A stretch of 33,707 nt of DNA, taken from the IMG/VR virus record IMGVR_UViG_3300034102_001213, positions 1-33,707 of that record; one strand, written 5' to 3'. Both the position numbers and the translations under genes were made by a program. Each line of letters starts with the position of its first letter. Within the stretch, counting starts at the first letter, position 1. Below the pieces are notes generated by a model. That model saw only the letters and a program-made list of their open reading frames with translations. It did no database searches and had not been told where the DNA came from. The DNA comes from a virus. Of the stretch, positions 2,300 through 33,707 are shown one piece after another.

Positions 2300-2698
2300 T
2301 TATGTATTTGCGATTGGGGTTGGTGGTATTACAGGTTCTTCACCTGGTTCTGCCCATGGTAGGGCACTTGAAGCAACATCGACCATTGGTCTTACGATTG
2401 CATCAATCTGTTTCTGGATCTGCTCATCAATATGAGTTTTGTATCCAGAGTTGTTATTTACTACATCTTGGATCCAACTAAGAACCTGAGTCTCTGTCAG
2501 ATCTTCGTATGTAGTAAAATTATCGGCATCCACCATATCTGGTTCAAAGGGCGTTGCGCCGCTGAATGTTCCGGCATTGCCGTATACATCGATCCCCTTG
2601 CATTCCCAGTATGTCTGGACGATGATATCATTAAGTTCTGCAGAAGGATCGTCCTGCTTCTTCAGACTTGTAATTTTCCACGTGTATGCGAATGTCAT
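2300..2698 (-). CDS. DUF7936-like small structural protein
   Basis: This 132-residue protein begins with an aromatic stretch containing YTWKITSLKK. It continues with NDIIVQTYWECKG (residues ~24-36), GNAGTFSGATPFEP (~41-54), and a helical region with DLTETQVLSWIQDVV. It ends in a Pro-rich tail after LPWAEP. This pattern matches a small protein family widespread in aquatic tailed phages, usually beside fibre genes and believed to be virion-associated. The ATG overlaps the stop of the 1409-residue fibre gene (ATGA), and an AGAGG site sits in the end of that gene. Function is unknown; a fibre connector or accessory role is inference from position. Confidence 0.65.
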   Translation of the reverse strand: MTFAYTWKITSLKKQDDPSAELNDIIVQTYWECKGIDVYGNAGTFSGATPFEPDMVDADNFTTYEDLTETQVLSWIQDVVNNNSGYKTHIDEQIQKQIDAIVRPMVDVASSALPWAEPGEEPVIPPTPIANT

Positions 2699-16097: not shown

Positions 16098-17953
16098 AAA
16101 ATTATGAAAACGATATTGCTGTAACCTATATTGATAGAGAATGGCCAGATATTGAGAAGGAAATACGTAACCATGTAACAGACTGGTCTGTGTGTATCCA
16201 AGCCGGTGGCCACCTTGGGTTATATCCTACACGTCTTTCGAAGTTGTTTGGCACAGTACATACATTTGAAGCTGATGCCGGTAACTATCAAAAGCTTGTT
16301 GAAAACTGCAGCGATGAAAATAACATCGTGTGTTATCATAATGCGTTAAGTGCATATTCTAGAGCAATGGGCATTTGGCGAATGCCTGGTGGAAATACCG
16401 GTCAGAATTTTGTTGTTCAAGGTAACGATGTTGATGCAATCACCATTGACTCTCTTAACTTACCATCGTGTGGTTTGATCCAACTTGATATTGAGAGGCA
16501 TGAACTGTTTGCGTTGATGGGTGCAATTGAAACCATTGAAAAGTTCCGGCCAGTTATTATTCTCGAGGGGCCGGAAACAACCAACAATGCATGCAATATT
16601 ATTTTAGAACAACTCGGCTATGAGTTTATTGCAAGAGCCGGACAAGATAGTGTATTTGTGTACACAAATTCAGCTGCACCAACTACAGAGTATAGAGATG
16701 TTAATATGAAAAAGATTCTAGTTGCTATTCCTACTGCTCGTTATATCGAACCGGATACATTTAAGTCGATCTATGATTTGGATGTTCCTGCTGGATACGA
16801 AATAACGTTTCAGCATTTCTACGGATATCGAGTTGACCAGGTACGTAATCTAATATGTGATTGGGTTGCACGCGGTTATGATTATTTGCTGGCAGTCGAT
16901 CATGACGTGACCTTTGCACCGGATACACTTAGGAAGTTACTGGATCACAATGTGGATCTGGTATCAGGTGTCTATAGGCAGCGACTAGAGCCACAGGCGA
17001 TTGAGATCTACGATTTAAATCAGCAGCGTATGACTATCGATCAGATCTATGGAAAAGATCTTGTTAGGATCGGCGCCTGTGGATTTGGTTGTGTTCTTGT
17101 CAAAAAGGAAGTTATCGTCGGAGTTGGATATCCACAGTTCGAATATCATCCAGCGCTCGATCACGGTAAAACTGTCAGCGAGGATACCGACTTCTGCAGA
17201 AAGGCAACAAACAACGGATTTGAACTATGGTGTGATCCATCCATTCTTTGTGGCCACATCGGTTCGACTACAATGTACGTTAAAACTCCTGAAGTTGCAA
17301 TCAACCCAGTTGAAACACGATTACGTGGATTATCTCTTCGTGATGATCTTCCAAGAGACCATGTCGATTATCTCAAGGGGATGGATATCAATCCAAAGGT
17401 GATCTATGACATCGGTGCATGCATTATGCACTGGACGAAGGAAGCCAATAGAATTTGGCCTGATTCTAAGATTGTTATGTTCGATGCTATGGACCATGCC
17501 GAGTTTCTTTACAAAGAATCAGGCCATGAGTATTACTGTGGCCAAGCTATCGGCGATGTGTCTGGTAAGTCTATCGATTTCTATGAGAAGCCAATGGATC
17601 CTGCAGGTAATAGTTACTATAAGGAAAACTCAGCACATTTTACTGAAGCTGATAAAGTAACAAAGACCATGATTACACTAGATGATTTGGTCACCAGCCG
17701 CCGTATACAACTGCCAGATCTTGTCAAGATTGATGTGCAGGGAGCTGAACTGGATGTTCTACGCGGTGCACAGTATACTTTAAAGGACTGTAACGATATC
17801 ATTATTGAGATGCAGCATGAAGAGTATAATCTTGGCGCGCCTCAGGTTGCAGAGGTTACAGAATATCTTAACATGTTAGGATTTAAGTTAGTAAGTGTAA
17901 TTCGTACTACAGGCGCAGATGGCGACTATCACTTTGCCCGGGCAAAGTTGTAA
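16094..17953 (+). CDS. FkbM methyltransferase - glycosyltransferase - FkbM methyltransferase fusion
   Basis: This 619-residue protein has three domains. Residues 1 to ~200 are an FkbM-like SAM-dependent methyltransferase (VCIQAGGHLGLYP near 35, HTFEAD, LIQLDIERHELFAL near 128). Residues ~208-410 resemble a GT-A glycosyltransferase (KKILVAIPTARYI; YLLAVDHDVTFAPDTLRKLL with a DHD metal motif near 270; LVSGVYRQR). Residues ~430-619 are a second FkbM domain (VIYDIGACIMHW; LVKIDVQGAELDVLRGA near 542; IIIEMQHEEYN). FkbM enzymes O-methylate sugars or other hydroxyls. In the first copy the usual Gly of the acidic motif is Arg (DIERHE), so activity is uncertain. An internal ATG at the second domain hints at fused genes. 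It ends 47 nt from the convergent minus-strand gene. Confidence 0.85.
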   Translation: MKNYENDIAVTYIDREWPDIEKEIRNHVTDWSVCIQAGGHLGLYPTRLSKLFGTVHTFEADAGNYQKLVENCSDENNIVCYHNALSAYSRAMGIWRMPGGNTGQNFVVQGNDVDAITIDSLNLPSCGLIQLDIERHELFALMGAIETIEKFRPVIILEGPETTNNACNIILEQLGYEFIARAGQDSVFVYTNSAAPTTEYRDVNMKKILVAIPTARYIEPDTFKSIYDLDVPAGYEITFQHFYGYRVDQVRNLICDWVARGYDYLLAVDHDVTFAPDTLRKLLDHNVDLVSGVYRQRLEPQAIEIYDLNQQRMTIDQIYGKDLVRIGACGFGCVLVKKEVIVGVGYPQFEYHPALDHGKTVSEDTDFCRKATNNGFELWCDPSILCGHIGSTTMYVKTPEVAINPVETRLRGLSLRDDLPRDHVDYLKGMDINPKVIYDIGACIMHWTKEANRIWPDSKIVMFDAMDHAEFLYKESGHEYYCGQAIGDVSGKSIDFYEKPMDPAGNSYYKENSAHFTEADKVTKTMITLDDLVTSRRIQLPDLVKIDVQGAELDVLRGAQYTLKDCNDIIIEMQHEEYNLGAPQVAEVTEYLNMLGFKLVSVIRTTGADGDYHFARAKL

Positions 17954-18610: not shown

Positions 18611-19201
18611 TTATGAAGTTGTATCTAACTGATAAGTTATAGTTGCAGCTGCCGCCGTAACACCAGTTGAAATTCTTCTTATAGTCACATAAAGATCGAT
18701 ATTGAAAGTTCGGTTAGCAACAGCGCTTAGTGTCCAACCAGCAGCAACGCCGCCTAATGTAACCCATGTATCAAGCGGTGAAACTGAACTTGACCAAGTC
18801 CCGAGAGCAACAGATCTGGTTGCAAATATCTCATAATAAGAAAGATTTGTTGAATCTAATGTGCCACCAACACCAATTAATGAAAATACATTTTCATAAA
18901 AAAATGCTGGATTGTTGTCTGCGTATTCGAATGCACGACCATCTGTAGAAACACCAAATGTCACTGAACCTGGCGAACCACCTGTAAAATTAGAGATGCC
19001 GCGCGCCGATAATCCAACATACGGAATCGATTTACCATTGAATGAGCTCATCGTCAAACCTGACGCAGTAGTACCGATTCCTGTCATTGCACCATCGTTT
19101 GGTACGTATGACCCACCTCTATTATAGCCGCTAAAGGCGTTGCCTCCACTAAATACAGATTTGATGGAAGATAATGATGGAGTAGAAACTATCCCAGGCA
19201 T
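18611..19201 (-). CDS. Fibre-region virion protein, function unknown
   Basis: This 196-residue protein has an N-terminus (FSGGNAFSGYNRGGSYVPND, then SGLTMSSFNGKSIPYVG) that is Gly/Ser/Asn-rich. The 'LTMSSFNGKS' segment resembles the 'ISLSNLYGKS' element in the 151-residue protein at the other end of the cassette. The rest alternates hydrophobic and Ser/Thr residues, as expected for a beta-sandwich with GTWSSSVSPLDTW and FNIDLYVTIRRISTG. No enzyme motif, signal peptide or membrane segment is visible. A GGAGA site lies in the end of the upstream fibre gene, and the stop and start overlap as TAATG, so translation is probably coupled to that fibre. Confidence 0.6.
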   Translation of the reverse strand: MPGIVSTPSLSSIKSVFSGGNAFSGYNRGGSYVPNDGAMTGIGTTASGLTMSSFNGKSIPYVGLSARGISNFTGGSPGSVTFGVSTDGRAFEYADNNPAFFYENVFSLIGVGGTLDSTNLSYYEIFATRSVALGTWSSSVSPLDTWVTLGGVAAGWTLSAVANRTFNIDLYVTIRRISTGVTAAAATITYQLDTTS

Positions 19202-20685
19202 TATCTATTCTCCAACTTCTCTACTTTAGCATTCAATTCTTTAATAGCTTCAATAAGTACAGCAGTTAACTTGTTATAGTTAACAAGTTTATACCCATTT
19301 TCGCGATTGGTGTGAACAAATTCTGGATATACTTGTTCAATTTCCTGGGCGATCAAACCAATTTCTTCATTAGATCCAAATCCCATATTTCTTGCAGTAT
19401 CGTTCCATGAATACCGCACGCCATTTATTTTAGTAACATTATTTAACGCATTTGTTATATTGCCGAATATGTTCTTTAAGTTCTTATCTGATGAAAGTAC
19501 AAAGTCGCCGGCGTATACAGTCGCAGAATAACCATCACTTAAAGTTGAGCCGGTTGATGCATAATAAGCTACTGCACCGGCACTAGTACCATTGTTAACA
19601 ATACCTACACCAGCAGATCCAGTATAACCAATAATGCCCTGTGATCCAGTATAACCAATAATACCTTGCGATCCAGTATATCCGACACCTTGTGAACCTT
19701 GTGATCCAGTATAACCAATAATACCTTGTGATCCAGTATATCCGACTCCTTGTGATCCTGTAAATCCAGCAGATCCATTAAATCCATTAGTACCAGCAGA
19801 TCCAGTATAACCAATAATACCTTGCGATCCTGTAAATCCAACAGACCCATTAAATCCATTAGTACCAGCAGATCCGGTGTATCCAATAATACCTTGTGAT
19901 CCAGTATATCCAATAATGCCCTGCGATCCTGTAAATCCAACAGACCCATTAAATCCATTAGTACCAGCAGATCCAGTATAACCAATAACACCCTGCGATC
20001 CGGTATAACCAATAATACCTTGTGATCCTGTAAATCCAACAGACCCATTAAATCCATTAGTACCAGCAGACCCGGTATAACCAATAATACCTTGTGATCC
20101 TGTGTATCCAACACCTTGTGGTCCAGCAGAACCAGTAAAACCAGTTACACCATTAGATCCAGTAAATCCAGTTGGTCCAACATTTAGTGCCCAAGATGAA
20201 TCGGTACCATTAGTTCTTAAGTAATACCCATTGACTGCAGTGTTCTGTGTTGGTAGGAGATTATTTAGTGCAGCATTTTGTGTTGTAGCATTAGTACCAC
20301 CTTGGCCGATGTTTAGAACACCATTCGAGATTGATGAAGCATTAACAGTAATACCTGTTGCATTTGCTATAATACCAGAGCCAGCTCTAATATTAATTGC
20401 TACGCCATTTGCAGTAACAATAGAGTTGGATATGTTGATATTGCCAGCCCAAATATCAAATGTTCTGGTTGTGTTACCTAACGCTTTGCCGTTGGCTGTA
20501 GGAATTAAACTACCATCGATCGATGTGTTGCTATATGTAAGATTTCCTACAACAAACACATCACCATTAACAGTAAGAGACTGTCTGACAATAACATGGG
20601 CATTAACAGTGGTGTTCGCCTGGAATAGCGAGTCACCTCCTGTTACTAAAAACCCGTTGTCTACTTTGAAATTAGTATTTGCCAT
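19201..20685 (-). CDS. Collagen-like tail fibre with S74 intramolecular chaperone
   Basis: This 494-residue protein has a beta N-terminus (residues 1-165, with SLTVNGDVFVVGNLTYSNTS). Residues ~168-358 form a collagen-like shaft of GFTGSQGII, GYTGSAGTN and GFNGSVGFT units. The C-terminus is an S74 chaperone (residues ~395-494: LSSDKNLKNIFG, IGLIAQEIEQVYPEFV, and a terminal coiled coil). Ser399 and Lys404 are spaced as in the S74 catalytic dyad, so autocleavage after trimerisation is expected. It is about a quarter the length of the giant adhesin but shares its collagen units at DNA level. AAGG precedes the ATG, and the stop overlaps the next start as TAATG. It is likely a short or side fibre. 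T4 gp12 occupies this general position, but the proteins are not recognisably related. Confidence 0.85.
   Translation of the reverse strand: MANTNFKVDNGFLVTGGDSLFQANTTVNAHVIVRQSLTVNGDVFVVGNLTYSNTSIDGSLIPTANGKALGNTTRTFDIWAGNINISNSIVTANGVAINIRAGSGIIANATGITVNASSISNGVLNIGQGGTNATTQNAALNNLLPTQNTAVNGYYLRTNGTDSSWALNVGPTGFTGSNGVTGFTGSAGPQGVGYTGSQGIIGYTGSAGTNGFNGSVGFTGSQGIIGYTGSQGVIGYTGSAGTNGFNGSVGFTGSQGIIGYTGSQGIIGYTGSAGTNGFNGSVGFTGSQGIIGYTGSAGTNGFNGSAGFTGSQGVGYTGSQGIIGYTGSQGSQGVGYTGSQGIIGYTGSQGIIGYTGSAGVGIVNNGTSAGAVAYYASTGSTLSDGYSATVYAGDFVLSSDKNLKNIFGNITNALNNVTKINGVRYSWNDTARNMGFGSNEEIGLIAQEIEQVYPEFVHTNRENGYKLVNYNKLTAVLIEAIKELNAKVEKLENR
19610..20185 (-). repeat. Collagen-like repeat array in the 494-residue fibre
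   Basis: Units of 27 bp encode Gly-X-Y blocks. Superimposed is a longer unit encoding GSAGTNGFNGSVGFTGSQG, present four times (about 19756, 19827, 19926 and 20026) with almost identical DNA. This implies recent duplication. The array points the same way as the arrays at 12465-12790 and 13160-13670. Confidence 0.85.
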
Positions 20686-20692
20686 GTCAACC

Positions 20693-22354
20693 TTACTTGA
20701 TTAGATGTGCTACAACTTTTACTGCTGAACTAGCCACTGTTTGCACAAGATATAGATTAACGTTAGCAGTATCGGTATTTGCTATAAATGTTCCTAGTGG
20801 AGATGATGCACCATTTGAGGCAACCGTGCCATACACAGTAATATAAGCATTGCTTGCGGCATCATGTGCTAGTACCATTTCTGAAAGTTGTGTCTGCCCG
20901 TTCTTAATCTGAATCTCGAACTTGCCAGATGAATAGGTTGCTTTAGGGAATCTATAAACTAACACAGCACCGATTGTAGCACCAATGTTACCATTAGCAA
21001 TTACATCCTGCACATAGTCGGTTTGGAATGTAACAGTGCCGCCAACTGATAGCGTATTTGATAGTGTAGTTACCCCAACAACACTTAGTGTTCCAGCTAC
21101 ATTAGCCGTGCTTTGAAGATTTGCTGCACCGACAACATTTAGTGTATTTGATAGCGTAGTTGCACCAGTTACTGTGATTGTATTTGATAATGTTGCCGCG
21201 CCGACAACTCCAATTGTTCCAGCCACATTAGCTGTACTCTGTAGATTTGCTGCGCCGACCACATTCAATGTGTTTGATAACAATACTGCACCAACAACAC
21301 CAAGTGTTCCAGCTACATTAGCCGTACTCTGTAGATTTGCAGAACCTACAACATTCAATGTGTTGGATAGTGTAGTAGCACCCGTGACACCGAGCGTGTT
21401 TGCTAGAGTGGTTACTCCAGTAACACCGAGCGTGCTTAATGCATTGGCTGCACCGGTGATACCAAATGTACTAAGTACGTTAGCCGCACCAGTCACACTT
21501 AACGTATTTGATAGTGTAGTATTTCCTGTCACCACGAGTGTATTTGCTAGTATGGTTGCTGCAGTAACACCAAGTGTACTTAGCAGATTGGCTGCTCCAG
21601 TCACACTTAACGTATTTGATAATGTAGCATTTCCTGTTACAGCAATTGTATTTGCAAAGGTAGCATTGCCAGATACATTCGCAGCACCTACAATTTTAAC
21701 ATAATTTACTGCAGTGATCGTAAGATTTGCTGCACTTGTCCATGTTCCATTGCCAATAGCGCTGTTGAATAAAGAGTTACCCACATACAAAGTAGTAGCA
21801 TTGGCAAAGATGTTGGCGCCGACTGCCATTGTAGTAGTGTTTCCGGTAAAGATCCCGGTAGTAAATGCCGTCGGGGTTATGTTTGCAGTTGATATATTAT
21901 TTGCAATTTGAATTAGCGTTGGGCTAATATTTGTGTTTACAACACTCGAAGATTGTGTTATAATAGCAATGCTATTCACAAACGAATTAGCAGTTCCTAC
22001 GCCAAGGTAAACACCAACTGGATTGATATAACTGTTTGATGCAGTGTTACCAACAAGGACTCTAATACCAGCATCTGCAGCAACATAGGCAGTAGCGTTT
22101 GTTGTGATTAAAAGGTTGGCCGATAGCCCATTGACATTACCACCACGAAGTGCAGTTGTTACTACAACATTGTTTGCCCCGAATGTACCATAAAGTTGTG
22201 CTGTACGACTTACAACTGAGTTACCAGTATTTGCATACGTGGTATTTGCAGTGATGATTTCAGTTGATAAAGCATTAAGCAGCTCATTGCTCTTGAGCAG
22301 CCATACTTCAAAACTGTCGGTAATGATATCAACATTAGCTACTTGTCTTGACAT
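20693..22354 (-). CDS. Tail fibre with hexapeptide-periodic shaft
   Basis: This 553-residue protein starts with a helical N-terminus (residues 1-40, DSFEVWLLKSNELLNALST). It is followed by Asn/Thr/Ala-rich beta segments (to ~215) and a shaft (~220-435) of 12- and 18-residue units such as TTLSNTLNVVGA and ANLQSTANVAGTLGVVGA. The 6-residue multiple suggests a beta-helical or triple-beta fibre shaft. The C-terminal ~110 residues (SGKFEIQIKNG, MVLAHDAASNAYITVYGTV, LGTFIAN, VKVVAHLIK) match a compact beta domain often found at the tip of marine phage fibres. It overlaps the 69-residue gene as TAATG and lies 7 nt before the S74 fibre. AGGA precedes the ATG. A fibre role is secure; the receptor is unknown. 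Confidence 0.8.
   Translation of the reverse strand: MSRQVANVDIITDSFEVWLLKSNELLNALSTEIITANTTYANTGNSVVSRTAQLYGTFGANNVVVTTALRGGNVNGLSANLLITTNATAYVAADAGIRVLVGNTASNSYINPVGVYLGVGTANSFVNSIAIITQSSSVVNTNISPTLIQIANNISTANITPTAFTTGIFTGNTTTMAVGANIFANATTLYVGNSLFNSAIGNGTWTSAANLTITAVNYVKIVGAANVSGNATFANTIAVTGNATLSNTLSVTGAANLLSTLGVTAATILANTLVVTGNTTLSNTLSVTGAANVLSTFGITGAANALSTLGVTGVTTLANTLGVTGATTLSNTLNVVGSANLQSTANVAGTLGVVGAVLLSNTLNVVGAANLQSTANVAGTIGVVGAATLSNTITVTGATTLSNTLNVVGAANLQSTANVAGTLSVVGVTTLSNTLSVGGTVTFQTDYVQDVIANGNIGATIGAVLVYRFPKATYSSGKFEIQIKNGQTQLSEMVLAHDAASNAYITVYGTVASNGASSPLGTFIANTDTANVNLYLVQTVASSAVKVVAHLIK
21060..21700 (-). repeat. 36/54-bp tandem repeats encoding the hexapeptide shaft
   Basis: Imperfect tandem units of 36 bp (12 codons) and 54 bp (18 codons) encode xTLSNTLxVxGA and ANLQSTANVAGTLxVVGx. 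Three 54-bp units lie near 21085-21125, 21205-21250 and 21300-21345. Wobble positions differ between copies, so the array is older than the collagen array at 19756-20070. Confidence 0.8.
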
Positions 22355-22563
22355 TAATTATTCCTGTGTACTAACTGTAGTAAAAGAGTTTTAATATCAC
22401 GCATCTCATTCTCTACTTCAGCCATCCTTTTGCAAAGATTATTATTTTTTTTATTTGATTCACGCGCAGCTAAGAACTTTTTATACTCTTCTTCATTGTT
22501 GTTTATAATGACACCGGTATCAGTATCTTTTACATAACCAACATGATTAGTCTGCGCCAACAT
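22354..22563 (-). CDS. Small coiled-coil protein, conserved in aquatic T4-like phages
   Basis: This 69-residue protein has an N-terminus NHVGYVKDTDTGVIINNNEE followed by a charged helix and a Leu-heptad region (MAEVENEMRDIKTLLLQLV) that should form a coiled coil. A small protein with the 'GYxKDxxTGVIIN' start and C-terminal coiled coil is found near baseplate and fibre genes in many marine T4-like phages. Its function is not known; a trimeric connector is one possibility. It is linked by 1-nt TAATG overlaps to the genes on both sides, so translation is coupled in a three-gene chain. The ribosome-binding site (GGGG, 13 nt upstream) is weak, consistent with coupling. Confidence 0.65.
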   Translation of the reverse strand: MLAQTNHVGYVKDTDTGVIINNNEEEYKKFLAARESNKKNNNLCKRMAEVENEMRDIKTLLLQLVHRNN

Positions 22564-24635
22564 TATGCAGAGACCCCAATAACTTGAATCTGCTCTACCT
22601 TTGGTACAACAAAAGTTGTTTCAGAGAGAAGAACGATTTTGATCTGCATTGTGTTATATGTATCAAACTCTGTATATGACGATGTCACATATCTGGCAAC
22701 GTTGTCATAGGCAATATTATTCCACGCTGCATTCTTATACTTGAGCTTGTCAATAGCTACATCACCAATAATATTTACATTGGTGATTGGTTTGAATGTA
22801 GTAATGGCAGTACTAGTGACCGTTGCCACGGGAAATACCTGATGGTTTTCAGGAGTAAGAACGCTGTACACTCTGATCAGATCACCAATAGCTATTGTAG
22901 ATGTTTGATCTACAGTAGTAGATATCGAGTTGCTGCCATTTGTTGTTAAGAATGCACCAGTCAGGCCTGCATGAATTTCAGGATACTGTGGAAGACCATA
23001 CGTATATTCCCAAAGATCGTTTGGATCCTCTGTGCTATAACGTTCGGTGTTATTCTTAAGTTCCAGCGGGCTCCATGCTTTGTCATCGAAAGATTCTTTA
23101 TCAGCCGAGTTATGTATTTTAGCATATAACTTGATCTGCGTACCAGCCGGGCGGTAACCTGCCAGATATACTACGACATCCTCAGCATACTTACCTTCGC
23201 CGAATGAGATCTTCTTGGAGACATACTTTGACTTGGCAAGTCCATTGCGATCAACTTCTGTATCATAGTTAGTAATTGTTCCGCGAGTACTCGTATACGT
23301 GTTATTGATATCATTCTGATAGAAGAAGAAATCAAGTTCACCAGAGTTAATATAAGGTACTGAGAATCGATTTGCTTCAGATACTGATACATTGAATGTA
23401 ATATTGGCTACAGCAGACTTTCTATTCGTACCGTAGATAGTGGTGTTATCAACCTCTAACGATCTTGAAAGAATATACGACTCACGTGGAGAATTGTTAA
23501 ACTGTAGCAACTCTAGATTAGTCGATGTTGTTGGCATCGCATTAGATGAGTTAGCAACGTTATATGTCATTGTGTAGTTAGAAGTAGTAGGATTACCAAC
23601 CAAGAAGGTTGGCTTGAAGTTATCTACTTGGAATCTATCGATCGACACAACATTTGCAGACGAACCAGATCTTACACCAATGATACGTGTACCAGCAACA
23701 AACTTGACACTGCTATTTGCATTTGAGTCTGATAGGATTACTTTGTTTTTGCTGTAGTCAGTAAAGTAAACAACGCCAACCGGCGGGACCTTGAAGCCGA
23801 TGCCCACAGCACTGAAACTTGGATATTTGTCAACTGTCATCGATGTAGCATTGGTAATATTAGTAATAGTCAGAATATCTCTGCTACTATTAGCTAATAC
23901 AATCTTATCATCAATAGCATAACTCGTAAATGATGTGGCTGATCCAACAATAGTATTACTAGATGATGTGAATGTTACAGTACCTGTGGCATTAGCAATG
24001 TTTTGATATACCCATTCACCACCTGTGAATGTTCCTGATACTGTGTTATCAATCGTAAAAAATTCATACTCTTTATTAACCAATGGAATGGTTACATTGT
24101 TAGAGATAAACTGTGCTACTCTGACCTTGAACTTAAGATCTTTATTGCTGAACTTGTCATAGGTATTGAAGTTTGTTGCCTTATAAAGGAAACCATCAAA
24201 TCTTGATTGCGAACCTGGCGATGCAACGTTAGTAACACCACCTGCACCAATGATACGGTCGCCTTGGACATTTGTCCAGATATCATATGCAGGATCATTG
24301 TACTTTACAACAATTCCATAATAACGACCTGTCTTAAGGAGAACAGGATTATTAAATCCAACTACGGTTGGAGTCTGTGCATCGTTACTAAGATTGACCG
24401 AATCATAATCAATAGCTCTTGTAGAATGCAAGAGTGTCAGATTTGGATTTGGATCGCCATTTTCTACTTCACAGATCCAGACATTAATTCCTGGCTTTGC
24501 AGTACCACTGACATTTGCATTCTCTAGCGGTTTAGCTTTAAAGAACAGATCTATAGATGTCAGCATGATTTCAGCTACATTTGCAACTGTATCAGGATTT
24601 ACGTAAAACGTTTGGATGTAGTCAAAATTCGACAT
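22563..24635 (-). CDS. Baseplate/fibre-connecting virion protein, unnamed family
   Basis: This 690-residue protein begins FDYIQTFYVNPDTV, then VAEIMLTSIDLFFKAKP, PGINVWICEVENG and NPVLLKTGRYYGIVV (residues ~85-115). The 'LTSIDLFFxxKP' and 'GxxVxIxExxNG' pattern is seen in large baseplate-periphery proteins of T4-like aquatic phages. The middle has beta segments such as YSRDILTI-like strands near GSATSFTSYAIDDKIVL, and the end is DTYNTMQIKIVLLSETTFVV. The ATG at 24635 is preferred over a TTG three bases earlier because the GAGG site sits 5 nt before it. It lies 40 nt after the DUF4815 gene, with a near-consensus late promoter in the gap. It occupies the place of T4 gp9-gp10, but homology to them is not visible. 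Confidence 0.6.
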   Translation of the reverse strand: MSNFDYIQTFYVNPDTVANVAEIMLTSIDLFFKAKPLENANVSGTAKPGINVWICEVENGDPNPNLTLLHSTRAIDYDSVNLSNDAQTPTVVGFNNPVLLKTGRYYGIVVKYNDPAYDIWTNVQGDRIIGAGGVTNVASPGSQSRFDGFLYKATNFNTYDKFSNKDLKFKVRVAQFISNNVTIPLVNKEYEFFTIDNTVSGTFTGGEWVYQNIANATGTVTFTSSSNTIVGSATSFTSYAIDDKIVLANSSRDILTITNITNATSMTVDKYPSFSAVGIGFKVPPVGVVYFTDYSKNKVILSDSNANSSVKFVAGTRIIGVRSGSSANVVSIDRFQVDNFKPTFLVGNPTTSNYTMTYNVANSSNAMPTTSTNLELLQFNNSPRESYILSRSLEVDNTTIYGTNRKSAVANITFNVSVSEANRFSVPYINSGELDFFFYQNDINNTYTSTRGTITNYDTEVDRNGLAKSKYVSKKISFGEGKYAEDVVVYLAGYRPAGTQIKLYAKIHNSADKESFDDKAWSPLELKNNTERYSTEDPNDLWEYTYGLPQYPEIHAGLTGAFLTTNGSNSISTTVDQTSTIAIGDLIRVYSVLTPENHQVFPVATVTSTAITTFKPITNVNIIGDVAIDKLKYKNAAWNNIAYDNVARYVTSSYTEFDTYNTMQIKIVLLSETTFVVPKVEQIQVIGVSA

Positions 24636-24657
24636 CAATTCCTCGTAATCTTTTGTT

Positions 24658-24675: not shown

Positions 24676-27600
24676 TCAAACTTCCTGTTCATCGCCGTTA
24701 ATGTTTCTGTAATTGACAATTCTCACATTCTTTTTGTCAATTGCATCATTAACGGCTTGAGCAGTATACATATCAGTTTGAGATGACGATGGTCTGTCAG
24801 TCGACGTAGATGACATAGTAGCAGTCTGTGTTGTATTTAGACCGGATGCATTATTGTAGTCAAACGGTATATTTGTATAATACTTAAGACCGATAGATCC
24901 TGAAGATTTGGAGTTTCCATCATATGATTCTACACTGAAGATCTTTGTGCCAGCGGTTGCCGCCGCAAGTTTATTTCTCTGTTGTAGATCACTGGTAGCT
25001 TCATCGATTCCAGCATCGTAGTAGAAATCAAAGTTAAGAGTCCCGTTGGCATCAACAAGCAGTCCTGATGTATTCGTTGTTGAGGTTCTTGACTGCGAAC
25101 ACTTTGTTGTCTTATCTTCACCATCAAACACAAACTTATGATATGTATTCGGCTTCAGACCGGTGATTGAGATGCTAAACTTCTGCGCATCTGATACAAA
25201 CTCACCAAGATCAAACGATCCATAAAGCATATATGAATACTGCTTAGAAAGCATAATTGTAAAGTCGGCCGGCATAATCTGGTGAACGATGCCAGTGTAT
25301 CCGAAGTTGGCAGGATTTGGTACGATTTTTGTCTGTGTGCTCACGACATCTGATGGATAGTATAACTTGTACCCGAATGTACCAGCCTTGGCACTTTGCA
25401 GGAATCCACCACTCTTCTTGCCCTTATAAACACGGATCTTGTAGTACACACCATCATTTGGATTGTGTATCCACAGGAGTTTGAACTGATCTTCAATGAA
25501 TCCGCCCACTGGACCATTTGACTTGCGTTCAATTGTATCTGGGTGCTCAATCTTTCTTCCATCATTAAGAACAGATAGACCCTTCGAGGTAATGTCTGTA
25601 GTTGTTATTGGAAGCGCAGCTGCTGATGTATACGTTGTAGTAAACGTTCCACCAGATGTTTGTGCTTGGAACACTTCAACAGCTAGATTGTTATCACGAC
25701 CATTGATATAGAATTCCACTGGACCGGTTAGTGTGCTCAGAGTATAGTAGAAATCTTCGTATACCAGACCGCTGTCACTGTTCGATGTACTGCGCTGTGA
25801 TTGAATTGCAGTAGCCGTTGTTTGGTTGACTGTTGTTACCGTTATTGGACCTTCAACAGAACCATCGGTTGCATCATTCTGGCTAACAATAGTGAATTCA
25901 TTATATGGAAGTGTTACTACACCAGTCGACCCGTCATCTGGGCGGAATTCAAGATTCAACTCAGTCAGACGTGGTCCAAGTTGGTCATCTCTAATAGTTA
26001 CATAGAACTCAGGGTTACCAACATCGGCATAGTTGTAATCAGTGAATGGATCAACGAAGAAACCAAAGCGGAAGCGGTCGATCAACGAATCGGCAGACGA
26101 TGGGATGTAACGAGCCTTTGCAAGTGCTTCAGCCAACGTAAATGATACGTAGTATTCAAGATCTTTGATTCTCTTTTCAAGAGAAGCAATATCTGTCATC
26201 TTGTATCCCTTGACCTGGATACGTGCACGATCCTGAATACCAATCTGTGATGTCACAGTATAGGTTTTAATTCTCTTGCCATATACTTCATTGGCAACCT
26301 TAGTATCAATGATTTTTGCCATGTCATTGGACATTGCCTGTGACAATGAAGGATATGCCGGAATATTGAGGATCTGTAGAGTCAGACTGTTCTTGGGTTC
26401 AGGTGGGATATCATTAATGAATCCATTCTTACCTGTACGCACAATAAACTCACCAGTACTATCAACAACAACACGATCAGAACGACCAAGGTAGTATTCG
26501 ATACTTGCACTTAGATCTGTATCAGGTGCTGGGAAATACTTTTCAGAACTATCAAATCTTGCTGCAGAAGTTGGTTCTGATGGATTGATGATAGAAAGCG
26601 CATTGGCTCCTGCAGGTACAGTTGAAATATCTGTAATCAGAGCAATAGTATTTGCTGAACGTGGGCGGAAGTCATACTGATCGCGAAGATCATAGTATGT
26701 TCCACTCGTACCAAGAATCTCTGGGATCTCCATAGTGTGCACATTCGCCTGTGCTGAAAGTGCAGCAAAATCTAAAGTATCTGTGACACTATATGAAGTA
26801 ATTGTCTTCACACTTGCTGAACCGCCAGTAAATACGTCATACTGTACTAGAAGAACATCGTTGGATCCAAGTGTAGTTGCACGTGGCTTTCTGTATAGAT
26901 ACGATGTATCTAGATAGTCTTCCTTCTGATTGGTGTCAAGATAAAAATCATTAGTAACATCTGCCACACCATATGTGTTACCATTAAAGAATATTGGCTG
27001 TCCGGTAAGTGTGTGATTCTCTGATGTAGCCGATGCAGTAAGTGCTAGATTTGCACCTCCACGTGTAGAGGCCAAAGCCGTACCGAGAGTATTGGCATAC
27101 ACTGCATAGTATGTAGTACCATTGGTAAGACCGGTGATACCTGATGTCATACCAGTATTTGAATAGACTACCGAGTCGCCGTTGGCAAATACATTATTAG
27201 GAAGACTAACGAATGAACTAACAACCCCAGTATTAGCATTGAATGTCTTGGCTACAGATGCACCATTTGCCTGATATACTTTTCTCAGACGGAACCCATC
27301 TGATAATCCTAATACCCATGGACCGCGAACACTGCCGGCGTTATTTGAACAGACAAGGCGTGTATAAACAAAACGTGTTGCTGACTTAACTTCAGAAGAC
27401 ACCCCGGTTCTTGTAGCATTATATGTAACCATAACGTTAGCAGAGGAAGACGAGTTGCCGGTGTTAGAAATATTGCTACCAAGATATACTGTCATTACTT
27501 GGCTATTTGATGTGCTTACGTTTGCCCACCGTGTTGCTTTGCCAGTCAGCGAGATAGGTACATTCTTAGGGAAGTACAATGTAGCACTACCCCCTGTGTA

Positions 27601-29982
27601 TGTCTGACCTGCACCTGATGTAAGAACCAATGTGGTATTGCTTGTTACCTGCGCAACCTGCTTAATTACAACTGTTCCATTGATCGAGTTGGCGAATCGT
27701 ACAAAGTCTCCAGCAGTAAATGTAGCATAAAGATTTGCACCAGTTGCTGCAACAATCGTATTTGCTGTAGTACCAGCACCAATGGAGATAGTACCTGTTA
27801 TTGGCGCAGAAGATTGATAATTTTCTTTTGGAACGACAAGAAGGTCTCTTTCAGCCGATGTACTTAGTACACCAGTATATGGGAAAATAATATTTGACCC
27901 AAGGTCTAATGTGATATAACCAGAAGTATTGGCAATTTCTGCTTCATTTGTTGTTCTATACGTATATGAAATATTTGAAACAGCTTTCATAGCAGGAACT
28001 GAATTATATAGTAGTGAACTGCCTGATGAATCTTCAAGGATTGCAGTGCCTGCATCGCTTAGTACTACATCAGCAATACCGCCATTAGTTCCATCATAAA
28101 ATACTGAACGGACTGTCCCAAAGTTTTGACCGCTATTCATTACTACATCAAACAGATACAGTCTGTACACAGCGTTGGCTGTGCCGGGTTCGCCTGACTC
28201 TAAAGCCAATGAGCGCATGCGGGCTTCACCAATCTTAGTAGCAGGCGATGTAATTGTATTACCTGCAGATGATGTGATGTATGTTACCGCGGACGAGTGG
28301 AGTTCAATCAGACCGCCGATGTTGAATGCAAAGTTACCACCGACTTCTTTTACACGAACGTAGTTGCCATAACCAAGGCGGATTCTAGCATTTGTGTTTG
28401 TAGCCGTGGCAATACCCTTAGCTACGTTTGCACGGTATTGATCTGTCTCTACACGATATCCATTGATATATGCTTTACCCGGATCAATATTGATCTTGAA
28501 TGCTGTTGCTGTCTGAGAGAATGTCGTAGAATCTCTTGTCGAGACAATGAACTGATCTAGTACATAGTTACCAGATTCTTCATATGTTCTCTTGGCCATC
28601 TCATCGCCGATGACATTATATACCGTGCTTTGATTCTGCTTGTAAGGGCGGCCATCTGCAAACTCGATAATTGGCAGGAAGTCGGTGTTGGCATCTGCAA
28701 CATCTTTGTCAAGAACAATAAGTTCAGGAGTTAGTTTAAGACGATCTGCACCTGGAGCTGCATAGTTATATGTACCAGTTGCATTATCAAGTAGAGACGT
28801 ATCTTCATTGCTGTCAATAATATCTTCAGCTGTATAGAACCCAACCGACTTGTTGAAGTCTGTATTCGAATACTTGTTTACGACTACTAGTTGTGGAGAT
28901 ACTCTTGAGAAGAATCCCTTCTGATAGATAGTACCTTCATCAACGGTGACACCATATCCTGTACCGACTGGTATGAGCATCGAATTGGCAACCGAGATTG
29001 TTGCCATGTAGTTAAGAGCCGTAACATCCAAAACACCAATTTGAACATCAGTGAGAGAAGATGTTGTTTGTTTCATTACTGTTACGTGTGGAGTCACGTA
29101 GTAACCTGTTCCGCCACCTGTAACTGAGATGGATGTTACTTTACCGAGACCGTCAGTTACTAGAGATCCGGTTGCACCGCTACCAATAACAGCTACAACA
29201 CTTGCGATATTGGCTGTCGTTGCATTCTTAACACTATCACCGCCAGATACACGCCATTTAATTGTATTTGCAGTTAGAAGATCTGTAGCAAGTGGCTTGA
29301 CCTTAAGGATAAGAACTTGAGTATTTGTGACTGCATCTGTTGAAATAATTTCCAGATTTGCAACACCGTTTTGAATGATCTGGCCGGTAACCCATGCATT
29401 TAATGGGAATGTAGTACCGCCAGTTGTGTTCTGTACAGCGAGTGCAGAAACAATGACAACACCATCATTATTACTGATTAACGATGAACCATTGTTTACA
29501 AGTGTCTTAAATATAGGATACTGTTGACTGAATACTGTGAGATTTTCACCGGCCGCGTATGATGCCGTATTCGAATTAGAACCCGAAGAGTTATACTTAA
29601 CATAAAGTGTATTAAGATCAGGAGAGCGTGACTCAAACCCTGCTACTGTCTTGACAATATAACCTGTAAGATTTGCGCTATTACGAACCGACATACCTTC
29701 GTATGCTGTAACAGAAATCTGAGTTCCGTCTGTTTCAGTGTCCTTGACCTTTACGTATGGAAGAACTGAGTGACGGACAATATTACAACCTTCAATGATC
29801 GTACCGCGCTTGAAGATATTATCACCAAACTTCTCAACTTGGTTCTGCAAGATTGTTTGAAGTTGATTTAGCTCGCGAGCCTGTACTGCCACACCTGGCT
29901 TGAAAAGAATACGATAGAAATTCTTTGCCGGATCGTAATCGTCGTAGTATGGAAATACATTTAGGTCTGTTTGCAGAGCCAT
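24676..29982 (-). CDS. DUF4815-type giant baseplate protein
   Basis: This 1768-residue protein has the DUF4815 N-terminal signature: FPYYDDYDPAKNFYRILFKP, then VQARELNQLQTILQNQVEKF and FKRGTIIEGC (residues ~10-70). Later motifs are TGGGTGYYVTPHVTV near residue 290, an FANGDSVVY...TYYAVYAN module at ~930-995, and the conserved YYDLRDQYDFRPRSAN near 1107. The C-terminus includes TDRPSSSQTDMYTAQAVND. Proteins of this family lie directly after gp8 in T4-like cyanophages and relatives and are virion components. They are thought to form the outer baseplate where fibres attach. It lies 4 nt after gp8. GGAG is 11 nt from the ATG, slightly long. T4 itself has no equivalent of this size. Confidence 0.85.
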   Translation of the reverse strand: MALQTDLNVFPYYDDYDPAKNFYRILFKPGVAVQARELNQLQTILQNQVEKFGDNIFKRGTIIEGCNIVRHSVLPYVKVKDTETDGTQISVTAYEGMSVRNSANLTGYIVKTVAGFESRSPDLNTLYVKYNSSGSNSNTASYAAGENLTVFSQQYPIFKTLVNNGSSLISNNDGVVIVSALAVQNTTGGTTFPLNAWVTGQIIQNGVANLEIISTDAVTNTQVLILKVKPLATDLLTANTIKWRVSGGDSVKNATTANIASVVAVIGSGATGSLVTDGLGKVTSISVTGGGTGYYVTPHVTVMKQTTSSLTDVQIGVLDVTALNYMATISVANSMLIPVGTGYGVTVDEGTIYQKGFFSRVSPQLVVVNKYSNTDFNKSVGFYTAEDIIDSNEDTSLLDNATGTYNYAAPGADRLKLTPELIVLDKDVADANTDFLPIIEFADGRPYKQNQSTVYNVIGDEMAKRTYEESGNYVLDQFIVSTRDSTTFSQTATAFKINIDPGKAYINGYRVETDQYRANVAKGIATATNTNARIRLGYGNYVRVKEVGGNFAFNIGGLIELHSSAVTYITSSAGNTITSPATKIGEARMRSLALESGEPGTANAVYRLYLFDVVMNSGQNFGTVRSVFYDGTNGGIADVVLSDAGTAILEDSSGSSLLYNSVPAMKAVSNISYTYRTTNEAEIANTSGYITLDLGSNIIFPYTGVLSTSAERDLLVVPKENYQSSAPITGTISIGAGTTANTIVAATGANLYATFTAGDFVRFANSINGTVVIKQVAQVTSNTTLVLTSGAGQTYTGGSATLYFPKNVPISLTGKATRWANVSTSNSQVMTVYLGSNISNTGNSSSSANVMVTYNATRTGVSSEVKSATRFVYTRLVCSNNAGSVRGPWVLGLSDGFRLRKVYQANGASVAKTFNANTGVVSSFVSLPNNVFANGDSVVYSNTGMTSGITGLTNGTTYYAVYANTLGTALASTRGGANLALTASATSENHTLTGQPIFFNGNTYGVADVTNDFYLDTNQKEDYLDTSYLYRKPRATTLGSNDVLLVQYDVFTGGSASVKTITSYSVTDTLDFAALSAQANVHTMEIPEILGTSGTYYDLRDQYDFRPRSANTIALITDISTVPAGANALSIINPSEPTSAARFDSSEKYFPAPDTDLSASIEYYLGRSDRVVVDSTGEFIVRTGKNGFINDIPPEPKNSLTLQILNIPAYPSLSQAMSNDMAKIIDTKVANEVYGKRIKTYTVTSQIGIQDRARIQVKGYKMTDIASLEKRIKDLEYYVSFTLAEALAKARYIPSSADSLIDRFRFGFFVDPFTDYNYADVGNPEFYVTIRDDQLGPRLTELNLEFRPDDGSTGVVTLPYNEFTIVSQNDATDGSVEGPITVTTVNQTTATAIQSQRSTSNSDSGLVYEDFYYTLSTLTGPVEFYINGRDNNLAVEVFQAQTSGGTFTTTYTSAAALPITTTDITSKGLSVLNDGRKIEHPDTIERKSNGPVGGFIEDQFKLLWIHNPNDGVYYKIRVYKGKKSGGFLQSAKAGTFGYKLYYPSDVVSTQTKIVPNPANFGYTGIVHQIMPADFTIMLSKQYSYMLYGSFDLGEFVSDAQKFSISITGLKPNTYHKFVFDGEDKTTKCSQSRTSTTNTSGLLVDANGTLNFDFYYDAGIDEATSDLQQRNKLAAATAGTKIFSVESYDGNSKSSGSIGLKYYTNIPFDYNNASGLNTTQTATMSSTSTDRPSSSQTDMYTAQAVNDAIDKKNVRIVNYRNINGDEQEV

Positions 29983-29986
29983 TTAA

Positions 29987-32368
29987 TTAAAACTCCAAGA
30001 TTATTTTTATAATTTCTGATTTGTTGTCGGCACGAGTAATAGCATCTAGATTTTCAATATAGAGTACTTGACCGCTTCCAACAACAAAGTCTCCAGGATA
30101 TTTATCAGTTAGATTCTGGAGGACAGCACCAGAAGTCAAACCGGTAATCGGTCTTACACCACTCGGATCTAAATTATATGTGCTGAACTTATTACTAATA
30201 TACATTGTATCATCGTTTGAACCGCCGATCAGTTCAATATGATGGAATGCACCACGTGCCTCAGCGTAGGAGACAAGACCAGTTTGTTTAACTACTTCAT
30301 CGTCAATGAAACTTGTGCCGCCAGTTGGGAAGTTTCCTACTAGTCTGGTAAGTTGCGTAGCAGTCGCAAATCCAAGAGCAGATTTATCATTCACCTGAAT
30401 GCCAGATGTTTCAATAATACTTGTAGCATTTGATGATAAACCAATAACTCTTGAACTTTCAGTAAATACACCTGCAACATTTGATAGAGTAATCTGTCCT
30501 GTACTTATAGATGTAACTTTGCCAGATGCCTGCAGAATAAGTGCAGATATATCACAATCAGATGCAGTAAACAGCGAATCAGTAGTAGCAGCTATCTGAT
30601 AGTCATACTGTACACTACTTACTGTTGAAAGGAAAATGCTACTGCCCTTTGTGACTAGAACATAATCACCTGTCGAGAAGGCATCTTTGAATATAGGTGT
30701 CTGCGGATTAGCAAAGGAAGGTATTAATTGAGCAGCACTTCCAGTAGTAGCATTTACTTGGAGTACAGGAAGACTTGTATAATTGTTACCTTGATTTGAT
30801 ACAGTCACTGCAGTGACAACATTTGCTGTTAATGTAACGGTTGCAGCAAACCCAGATCCATCTGTTAAATAGTTATTTGAAAACACAGTTGCATCGGTAG
30901 AATAACTAGAACCACCATTAGCAATTGCAACAGATAGTGAAATACGCCCTTGATCTGTCTTTTTGATTACATTACTACTAGCAGTGACACTTACATTTCC
31001 ATGTAGTTTTAACTGTTTAAACTGACGAACTGTTTCGCCAATGGCGAAACTACCGATCGTGTTGGCAGTTCTTAGGATAAGATCTACATTTGTGTAGAGT
31101 GGATTCTTGATAAGACCGACTTGTCTAAAGTCGTTCGCCGTAGAAATTGTACCGCCTTCGTTATTGGTAAACTTAGTACTAACACAGATTCTCTTGGCAC
31201 CAAATTCAGTGATCGGATCAGATCCATGTCCACCTGGTGGAGAAATAATTGGTTGTAGGACGGCTGCTTGGAAAGCAGCTGCACTAGATACAGTTACTGG
31301 CAAATCGATGAATGCGCTATTAATTGTGATAGGAATAGTATCTGGTGTTTCACCGGCGTATGATTCGCCGTAACGATAATTTGCACCTACCTTAAGCATC
31401 TCAATTTCTATAATGCTATTTGATGATGTGCTACCAACAATAGCTCTTCCTTCAGCTGCTACTGTCTCTGTACCATCACCCCAAATATAAACATATGGAT
31501 ATACTTCATACGTATCACCAGCTGCCGGCGTAGTTGTAAATGCGCTATCAAGCAGAAAGATCTTTTGACCACCAACACCGCGATAATCAATAATACGACG
31601 ATGTTGTCCTGCAGCACCTGATGTAGAAGTTTTGATTTTAATTACGCCACCGCGATAGTAGTCATCTTCGGCTACTGCGGTATCCGGTGCACCATATATT
31701 GTGTTATCACCGCCAACACTGAGATCCGTTGTTCTGAAGGTTCCACTGTCGATATAGTTATCGTAACCGCGCCCGCCTTCAATAATATCAATAACCTCGA
31801 CTGACCCTGGAATGGCTGCAACCTGAATAGCAGAATTTGCAATAACTGGAATATAACTTGTTGTAGCAAACTTTTCATATTGTGTTTTAGTAATGCTATA
31901 CATGTATTTCCAAATGTATTCATCTCCGAGTGGAGTTGCCGATGTAGTCTTCCCATATGGTGAAACAGTAGAATTGACCGTTACACTTGAGTTGCTTGCA
32001 TTGAACAGGCACTTGTATACATTAAATTCGGTTGAGTCATCTACAACAGTATAGAAATTCTTGTTGTATAGATCACCGTCTGTGTGGTCATACTTGTGGA
32101 AGAAAGTATTAGAAGTCCACAGATACTTAGAAATAGAGTGAACAACATCACTAGATGTGACTCTCTTAGCAAAGATCATATCATTATAGACGTCTAAGTT
32201 AATTGACTTTAGACTATTATCAGGAGTCGTCAGGTTGGCATCACTACCTGGATATGGAGTGTGTTTGCCGGCAAAGATAAAGAAGTCATTATTAGCAAAA
32301 GAATCGACAAAGCTAGTCGCACTTTCAACATTAAAATTGGTTGTTACGAGTTTCTGTGTAACTGACAT
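29987..32368 (-). CDS. gp8: gp8-like baseplate wedge protein
   Basis: This 793-residue protein carries the gp8 N-terminal region typical of T4-like aquatic phages: FFIFAGKHTPYP, YNDMIFAKRVTSSDVV (residues ~50-75), DLYNKNFYTVVDDSTEFNVY, and GDEYIWKYMYSIT near 145. T4 gp8 is 334 residues, so this protein carries about 450 extra residues. These include beta modules with GGRGYDNYI (~193), NGGSSYSTDATV (~482) and NQGNNYTSLPVLQV (~522). In T4, gp8 joins gp7, gp10, gp6, gp53 and gp25 to make one of six wedges. A GAGGA site precedes the ATG. It lies in the expected order after gp7 and has an exact late promoter 72 nt upstream. Confidence 0.88.
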   Translation of the reverse strand: MSVTQKLVTTNFNVESATSFVDSFANNDFFIFAGKHTPYPGSDANLTTPDNSLKSINLDVYNDMIFAKRVTSSDVVHSISKYLWTSNTFFHKYDHTDGDLYNKNFYTVVDDSTEFNVYKCLFNASNSSVTVNSTVSPYGKTTSATPLGDEYIWKYMYSITKTQYEKFATTSYIPVIANSAIQVAAIPGSVEVIDIIEGGRGYDNYIDSGTFRTTDLSVGGDNTIYGAPDTAVAEDDYYRGGVIKIKTSTSGAAGQHRRIIDYRGVGGQKIFLLDSAFTTTPAAGDTYEVYPYVYIWGDGTETVAAEGRAIVGSTSSNSIIEIEMLKVGANYRYGESYAGETPDTIPITINSAFIDLPVTVSSAAAFQAAVLQPIISPPGGHGSDPITEFGAKRICVSTKFTNNEGGTISTANDFRQVGLIKNPLYTNVDLILRTANTIGSFAIGETVRQFKQLKLHGNVSVTASSNVIKKTDQGRISLSVAIANGGSSYSTDATVFSNNYLTDGSGFAATVTLTANVVTAVTVSNQGNNYTSLPVLQVNATTGSAAQLIPSFANPQTPIFKDAFSTGDYVLVTKGSSIFLSTVSSVQYDYQIAATTDSLFTASDCDISALILQASGKVTSISTGQITLSNVAGVFTESSRVIGLSSNATSIIETSGIQVNDKSALGFATATQLTRLVGNFPTGGTSFIDDEVVKQTGLVSYAEARGAFHHIELIGGSNDDTMYISNKFSTYNLDPSGVRPITGLTSGAVLQNLTDKYPGDFVVGSGQVLYIENLDAITRADNKSEIIKIILEF

Positions 32369-33707
32369 TTATTCCTCAATCGTCTTTGTTAGATAATGAC
32401 CGGCTGTGTTTGCGCCACTATCTGTTGTATTAGCTGTTATATTTATAGCGGTTCCATTGAGCGTTACTGATAATTTAACAGTAGTTGCATTTGTCCCTAC
32501 AATATAATACGGCGTATTGTTAGAAAGACCCTGTACGATAGTGTTACCAGTTTCTGTTGTGTATCTTACTAGATCGCCATTAGCAAACGGATTGGTTGTA
32601 CCAGTGCTGATTGTTTCATTGACAGAACTGACACCAGTATCAGATCTAAACTGAATCTCTTGCCCTGTCGCAATTGCTGTTAATGTAACTGGAAGAGATG
32701 CTTCCTCTACAATCAATGCAGAACCAAAGAACTTAGTACCAGCAGTATGCATAACCTTCTTGAACATGTCAGCATAACGATCTACCGAGATCTTAGATAG
32801 AATTTCATATGAATATTCTTGATAGTAATCACCATCATGAATGTACATATCTTCTGAGATGAAACCCTTTGAACTTCTATAGTATCCTTTACCGATACCG
32901 TGTCCGTCAACAACAACTTTAATTGTACCAGATCTTGCACCATCTTCTGATGTGTATTGAATAACATCACCATTCGAATATCCAATACCAGAGTCCACAA
33001 CCTGGAATGATGTAACCTGACCATTGGCAGTAATAACGTTTGCTTCAATAACAGCATTCAAACCAATCGGATATAATAGACTTGTGTCTTCGACCACTGC
33101 TGTTACATTAGCAGACAATCCTGAAAGATCACCTCTTAGAAGAGTATTTGCTGCAAATGTATTTTCGAATGTAAGTCTCTTTACCGATACAGATGTAGTG
33201 TTTGCAGACTTGACAATTCCCTTGGCCGTGGATGTAATCTGATAGAGAGCAAAACTCTCAATATTTGCACTAACATAAGGATTTGTATATGAATTCAGAA
33301 TGTTGGCTGTAAGTGTTCCAGTATTGCCGGATATTCTTACATATCCATTAGCTCCCACGGTGTAGACTGACTGGACGGTAACATTCACTATTGGCGAACT
33401 GTTGACATACAGCTTATCACCAGGAAGGAATCCAGGAACCGTAGAGAAGTTATGTGTTTCGGTAGTTACAGCTGCGGCATTGATTGCTTTAGCTGACCCG
33501 CCAAGTGTATCCGAAAGTTTGAAACCTACAGTATTAGCACTAACGATGTAATATGCAGTGTTATTTGCCAGTCCATCAATTACAGTATTTGATGTTGGTA
33601 CTCTATAAAGTACTCTCTGTGTATTAGCAAATTCGTTTGCATACTTGACAAGATTGTGACCATTGTAAGCAGCATTATAGTATCTTAGGAAGTGACCAGA
33701 GTCCCCT
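32369..33707 (-). CDS. gp7: gp7-like baseplate wedge protein, C-terminal part (partial)
   Basis: The frame is open from the stop at 32371-32369 to the window edge, about 445 residues. A GTG at 33388 is internal, not the start, because residues before it (for example FLPGDKLYVNSSPIVNVTV) continue the protein without a stop. The C-terminal part has YYQEYSYEILSKISVDRYAD and VMHTAGTKFFG, typical of gp7 in T4-like cyanophages. It is flanked by two copies of an 'NGDxVxY...GLxNNTxYYIV' module, at about 33440-33650 and 32375-32600. A DSGIGYSNGDVIQY element is near 32945-32995. T4 gp7 is about 1030 residues, so roughly half or more lies outside. It is the first protein of the wedge and the partner of gp8 and gp10. 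Confidence 0.8.
   Translation of the reverse strand, partial: GDSGHFLRYYNAAYNGHNLVKYANEFANTQRVLYRVPTSNTVIDGLANNTAYYIVSANTVGFKLSDTLGGSAKAINAAAVTTETHNFSTVPGFLPGDKLYVNSSPIVNVTVQSVYTVGANGYVRISGNTGTLTANILNSYTNPYVSANIESFALYQITSTAKGIVKSANTTSVSVKRLTFENTFAANTLLRGDLSGLSANVTAVVEDTSLLYPIGLNAVIEANVITANGQVTSFQVVDSGIGYSNGDVIQYTSEDGARSGTIKVVVDGHGIGKGYYRSSKGFISEDMYIHDGDYYQEYSYEILSKISVDRYADMFKKVMHTAGTKFFGSALIVEEASLPVTLTAIATGQEIQFRSDTGVSSVNETISTGTTNPFANGDLVRYTTETGNTIVQGLSNNTPYYIVGTNATTVKLSVTLNGTAINITANTTDSGANTAGHYLTKTIEE
32440..32447 (-). promoter_or_regulatory. T4-type late promoter upstream of gp8, inside gp7
   Basis: TATAAATA on the minus strand, exact consensus, lies in the last codons of gp7, 71 nt before the gp8 ATG. 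Transcription would begin about 65 nt before gp8. The codons read through Asn-Ile-Asn-Ile, so the box may have been kept for coding reasons instead. Confidence 0.5.

Follow-up and report, generated by a model that had tools for sequence, protein, structure and literature searches.

A recurrent module of gp7 and DUF4815 proteins in T4-like phages, predicted to form a small beta-barrel

The module and the genes that carry it

The window, by which we mean the whole stretch of DNA analyzed here (33,707 nt of IMG/VR virus record IMGVR_UViG_3300034102_001213), carries on its minus strand the 3′ part of the gene for the baseplate wedge protein gp7 (32369–33706), which is cut by the window end and encodes a 445-residue fragment (P0001, 32372–33706). 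Beside it on the same strand lie gp8 (29987–32368), a DUF4815/VrlC-like structural protein of 1768 residues (P0002, 24676–29982), and further structural genes. The DUF4815 protein passes the PF16075 cut-off (183.4 bits against 30, E 7.8e-54). The conserved core of gp7 (minus strand, 32675–33235, P0001 158–344) matches the phrog_17744 baseplate wedge subunit profile at E 4.8e-37, and PF23786 reaches only 14.1 bits on gp7, below its cut-off of 27. One published report describes gp7 as very divergent (PMC3037559). Another has pelagimyophages and cyanomyophages without T4 gp7 and with VrlC in its place (PMC7029224), whereas here the gp7 core and DUF4815/VrlC lie near each other in one record.

Several other features of the window are recorded for their own sake. 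The adjacent ORFs at 22563–24638 and 24676–29982 match separate parts of phrog_358 (1426–1588 and 162–1080, respectively), a pattern that looks, in sequence, as if one VrlC-like protein had been divided in two. Fibre genes at 8522–13945, 19201–20685, and 2695–6924 encode long collagen-repeat proteins and S74 endosialidase-chaperone domains, and glycosyltransferase and FkbM methyltransferase genes lie on the plus strand (14046–17953) within the minus-strand structural block. A 553-residue ORF at 20693–22354 consists mostly of repeats (TLSNTLNVVGAANLQSTANVAGTL) and has no Pfam match. Another short repeat, V.SI.V..GG.GY...P.V.V, can be seen by eye in gp7 (about 32951–33019), in the DUF4815 protein (29077–29142), and in gp8 (within 29987–32368).

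The module itself occurs three times in the window, always on the minus strand. The C-terminal copy of gp7 spans 32387–32665 as a full domain (P0001 348–440), with its motif part at 32390–32593 (P0001 372–439). The motif part of the internal gp7 copy lies at 33443–33634 (P0001 25–88), and with its flanks this copy covers 33431–33706 and reaches the window edge; the conserved core is situated between the two. In the DUF4815 protein, the full copy spans 26989–27267 (P0002 906–998) and its motif part 27007–27195 (P0002 930–992). The pairwise local scores of the three copies are 139, 118, and 99, and none of 2000 shuffles reaches any of them (maxima 62, 65, and 81), which rejects a chance repeat. 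Profiles built from two copies recover the third with E values of 6.8e-19, 8.9e-13, and 8.8e-8. These two-copy profiles find no fourth copy in the window, the sole other stretch with E below 1 being one in gp7 at E 0.41. By this sequence evidence, the three copies are one homologous family. The first-pass annotation had placed a module twice in the C-terminal part of gp7 and once in the DUF4815 protein, and the shuffles and leave-one-out profiles uphold all three places. Its estimate of about 65 residues suits the motif and falls short of the full domain, which has about 85–93 residues because a shared stretch, F-N-x-x-T-x-V...D-F-I-x-I, read in many copies, extends upstream of F-A-N-G-D; the domain starts about 25 residues upstream of that motif. 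Four positions of the module hardly vary: the leading F, the Y in V-x-Y, the L in G-L, and the first of the two Y residues in Y-Y.

Scans of Pfam and NCBIfam with the whole proteins and with the copies returned no family of the module's own. Searched against PDB sequences, three module profiles found unrelated proteins or nothing, with no copy convincingly matched, and a search with the gp7 alignment found no solved relative. A literature search that left subscription journals mostly outside its reach found no description of the module. When genome contigs were scanned, one marginal locus alone was obtained (Paenibacillus, 26 residues), and an E1_FCCH match at E ≤ 1e-4 occurs in none of 101 genomes of the phylum of that locus; therefore, no bacterial source was found.

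Spread, copy number, and insertion in relatives

A search of IMG/VR viral contigs with the three-copy profile led to 75 loci, which together with the window hold 2946 open frames. In these frames the profile finds 370 domains at i-E < 1e-3 and, after iteration, 379 domains in 84 frames at the same threshold; reversed or shuffled versions of the 2946 frames contain none. The 84 module-bearing frames comprise 56 with the gp7 core, 13 DUF4815 frames, and 15 others. Frames with a gp7 core hold between 1 and 10 copies, most commonly 5 (19 frames) or 7 (18 frames). As far as can be told, the four with only one or two copies are the edge-cut frames of the window, L055, and L075 and a short frame of L011; a further frame with the gp7 core (L051, 263 residues) has no copy and starts at the locus edge. 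Seven DUF4815 frames have no copy. Six of these are cut off by the locus edge no later than the place of the module, and the seventh, in L059, is a true absence. Among the other frames, PHROGs identify two as tail sheath proteins (L056 3895–6717 and L076 4798–6564), both of which have two modules, and two as gp8 homologues (L059 4161–6035 and L065 2–3160). The module sequences of L077 are the same as those of L076, and the module frames of L061, L062, and L063 have no protein assignment. Those of L007, L011, L022, L029, L069, L070, and L074 are presumably pieces of gp7, truncated where the locus ends or, for L011, at a frame break. The gp7 of L011 is read in two overlapping frames (2479–6447 and 6332–7123), either through a real frameshift or through an assembly error.

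For 12 named phages, fetched stretches were also searched with the module profile, which matches P-HM1, MED4-213, S-CAM7, DSL-LC01, and DSL-LC02, and ACG-2014f after iteration. The matches fall in gp7 and in further structural proteins, those of tail fibres among them, and related copies are present in cyanophage tail fibres. The fetched stretches of T4, phiM12, Cr30, DLP6, S-RIM44, and BUCT-ZZ01 give no match. T4 gp7 thus has no detectable copy, as had been asserted from the window alone. A two-module query from DSL-LC01 retrieves 133 phage records at E ≤ 1, of which 107 are named Synechococcus. Inside phrog_2885, a baseplate wedge subunit family of 4179 positions, 24 of 33 module copies find a match, but that family represents a whole huge protein and the module a domain family.

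The gp7 frame of L003 has 1564 residues and five copies and is identical to the gp7 of the window over all 445 residues, the two copies in the window being the fourth and fifth of its five. In a set of 12 distinct gp7s with five copies each, the best partner of a first, second, or last copy in another phage sits at the same position in 132, 132, and 123 of 132 comparisons, respectively, so that copies are largely kept and inherited in place. For the third and fourth copies this holds in only 67 and 69 of 132, probably because two layouts are mixed.

An alignment of the DUF4815/VrlC site in ten proteins bears on how the module came to be there. phiM12, Cr30, DLP6, and L059 have nothing at the site, and S-RIM44 has almost nothing; the module occupies it in the window and in L058, and another insert does so in P-HM1, ACG-2014f, and S-CAM7. 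On this alignment, the DUF4815 copy is a clean insertion. The insert of the three cyanophage VrlC proteins (L093, L097, and L098 for P-HM1, ACG-2014f, and S-CAM7) looks unrelated and reads GE.I.G..SG..A.V. In gp7, the last copy is placed after the conserved core, and the gp7s of phiM12 and Cr30 end at most 8 and 36 codons past the end of the core match. Compared with the gp7 of the window, those of L019, L004, and L030 have one more copy, set within the loop of the last copy, and therefore copies nest. The presence and absence at the DUF4815 site, the alternative cyanophage insert, the position after the core, the variable copy number, and the nesting together bear out the earlier suggestion of an add-on domain. 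Its restriction to outer baseplate proteins proved too narrow, since gp8 homologues and tail sheath proteins carry copies too, and cyanophage tail fibres carry related ones.

Predicted fold and relation to known barrels

AlphaFold2 was run on alignments of the window's own gp7 and DUF4815 proteins with their relatives. The mean pLDDT is 54.9 for gp7 and 66.2 for the DUF4815 protein, and the gp7 core is predicted badly (pLDDT < 50). The copies reach 74–90 for the C-terminal gp7 copy (over P0001 351–440), 63–81 for the internal gp7 copy (P0001 21–90), and 82–91 for the DUF4815 copy. The predicted order of strands (V.Y, YYV,.LS, H.L) is alike in all three.

Structures were compared with VIA-align on the best 1000 chains from Foldseek. 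The model of the C-terminal gp7 copy (347–445) resembles residues 180–261 of the E1 enzyme Uba1, which we take to be its FCCH domain (Z 7.3, 3.0 Å, 77 residues), and residues 255–339 of the phi92 endosialidase (Z 6.7, 2.5 Å, 73 residues). Residues 268–356 of the DUF4815 model, which hold its copy, resemble Uba1 180–259 (Z 7.0, 3.0 Å, 74 residues) and EndoNF 424–506 (Z 6.5, 2.2 Å, 69 residues). For these two modeled copies, Z values of 6.5–7.3 are of a size that a common arrangement can also produce. The internal gp7 copy has no structure match of its own among the best 1000 chains. Unrelated folds in the three places were thus not seen: the predicted strand order is the same throughout, and the C-terminal gp7 copy and the DUF4815 copy resemble the same solved folds. 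The Foldseek search with the DUF4815 model returned nothing at E ≤ 0.001, and a BFVD search with the gp7 model gave three matches at E ≤ 0.001, the best being a baseplate wedge subunit of an uncultured phage. Small barrels of the fold predicted for the module are found in tail tube and baseplate proteins such as those of JBD30, T1, and Mystique.

At the level of sequence, PF12195 (End_beta_barrel) alone among Pfam families finds more than two of the 29 copies, with four matches at E ≤ 10 and a best E of 0.001. Across records, it matches in 7 of 13, the best being G006 (E 1.3e-6, 23.6 bits) on a gp7 module; none of the 13 reaches its curated cut-off of 35 bits, and the window has no match at E ≤ 10. 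By coordinates, several of the other matches fall on DSL-LC01 modules and one on an ACG-2014f module. The match in L059 lies on a DUF4815 barrel equivalent to P0002 724–805, and the rest are outside mapped modules. With hhalign, 29 copies against seven endosialidase barrels score 25.9 over 31 columns, with a probability of only 44%; none of 150 column shuffles reaches this score (maximum 17.2), and the reversed profile gives 10.4. From these scores, with every PF12195 match below Pfam's cut-off, the module is probably homologous to the endosialidase barrels.

The DUF4815 protein contains a second small beta-barrel at 27568–27813 on the minus strand (P0002 724–805), with the motif GTGTxF...F.AGD and of a sequence family other than the module's. 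Its model resembles the E1 FCCH domain and a tail tube protein with Z up to 8.0. With hhalign, it scores 34.0 (84.6%) against the endosialidase barrels and 21.6 (12.9%) against the module, and in both cases none of 150 column shuffles reaches the score. From the hhalign scores of the module and of this second barrel, two sequence families in the DUF4815 protein therefore look related to endosialidase barrels.

The module and End_beta_barrel (K1F, phi92) share a length of about 83–93 residues, an opening motif [FL]..GD.V.[FY], the predicted fold match of two copies, and a profile–profile score above all shuffles. They differ in setting, the module being tandem or nested in baseplate and sheath proteins and the endosialidase barrel single in a tailspike enzyme, and all PF12195 scores of the module are under Pfam's cut-off. 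The E1_FCCH family (PF16190) and FCCH-like phage barrels give the highest Z of the two copies (7.3 and 7.0), but PF16190 has no match in the window at E ≤ 10, none in 33 copies at E ≤ 1, and no single match above its cut-off of 29.5 bits in 20 records. A module-rich DSL-LC01 protein of 2853 residues just passes PF16190 (29.8 against 29.5 bits), through a stretch at 1329–1357 that is outside its modules.

Possible roles of the module

We propose, with a probability of about one half, that the module is a small, mobile beta-barrel, distantly related to End_beta_barrel and to the E1 FCCH-like barrel, that serves virion proteins as a glycan binder. On this reading, T4-like phages have inserted the barrel repeatedly in loops and termini of gp7, DUF4815/VrlC, gp8, and the tail sheath, and the barrels would project from the baseplate wedge. 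By analogy, the many copies per virion may be weak glycan-binding sites that work together to hold the phage on the capsule or lipopolysaccharide of the host in reversible adsorption, and decisive receptor binding would be left to the fibres. According to PMC12632334, the K1F endosialidase binds polysialic acid at three sites, of which its beta-barrel is one, and the barrel is a hotspot of host discrimination, its loops telling hosts apart. Residues S460, S468, and G504 fall in the endosialidase region matched by the DUF4815 copy. The module and the sugar-binding barrel of such capsule-degrading tailspikes are probably related by descent, and because the K1F barrel binds polysialic acid, a multivalent glycan-binding role is the best, if unproven, reading by analogy. 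Carbohydrate-binding modules inserted in Dit proteins (evoDit) help adsorption, according to PMC9128512; they too are add-on domains in a baseplate protein, but they belong to other protein families and another host group, and their binding has been measured.

Further observations bear on glycan binding in both directions. The gp7 of the cyanophage P-HM1 (L093 3154–16494, 4446 residues) contains a YHYH domain (E 1.2e-26) and a CBM_5_12 match, which we count for the role as a sub-cut-off sequence match. Among 23 relatives, mean identity is 72% in the gp7 core against 62% and 54% in the gp7 modules, and such divergence fits a glycan role without proving it. The DUF4815 module, at 62% against 45–64% for its neighbors, is not less conserved than they are, which counts against that role, as do the tail-sheath copies, which are not at the host-facing end.

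It is quite possible that the barrels are instead purely structural, serving without a ligand as spacers, cement, or oligomerization units of a large baseplate, in the way that Ig-like domains may widen or stabilize other tails. Neighboring copies in tandem are most often spaced 80–84 residues apart (90 pairs), copies are present in the tail sheath, and small barrels of this fold, as in JBD30, T1, and Mystique, occur in tail tube and baseplate proteins, but copy-number change in close relatives and nested insertion are unlike a load-bearing part, and the module is linked by sequence to a known glycan-binding barrel. A selfish or neutral spread, in which recombination carries the module from one structural gene to another among co-infecting phages and exposed loops tolerate it, would account for the nested copies and for a DUF4815 site that alternates between module, empty, and unrelated insert; we hold it distinctly unlikely, given that the first, second, and last gp7 copies are largely inherited in place and that the four module residues named above are nearly invariant. 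That gp7 and the DUF4815 protein share the module as whole-protein paralogues is rejected as highly improbable: they are neighboring baseplate-region genes with a weak similarity just past the module (reached by 6 of 500 shuffles), but outside the module no convincing similarity was found between them, the gp7 core scores below the shuffle mean against the DUF4815 protein minus its module (318 of 500 shuffles reach it), and the DUF4815 site is empty in homologues.

The barrel proposed here as a mobile glycan binder is in any case a domain family that goes unrecognized as such in Pfam and NCBIfam. It explains part of the great size of gp7 in module-bearing phages, whose gp7s, compared with 1032 residues in T4, reach 1564 in the L003 frame, up to 2165 in relatives, and 4446 as annotated in P-HM1. 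A huge uncharacterized baseplate protein becomes a countable domain architecture for which the module suggests a role in adsorption, and DUF4815/VrlC gains a defined site of domain insertion. A bolder reading, which strikes us as rather unlikely, is that the baseplate and tail wear a coat of exchangeable domains that binds glycans multivalently, in which an insertion site in gp7, DUF4815, gp8, or the sheath may be empty or hold this barrel, nested barrels, or another domain. If true, avidity for the host surface would be tuned by swapping and multiplying domains, apart from the tail fibres.
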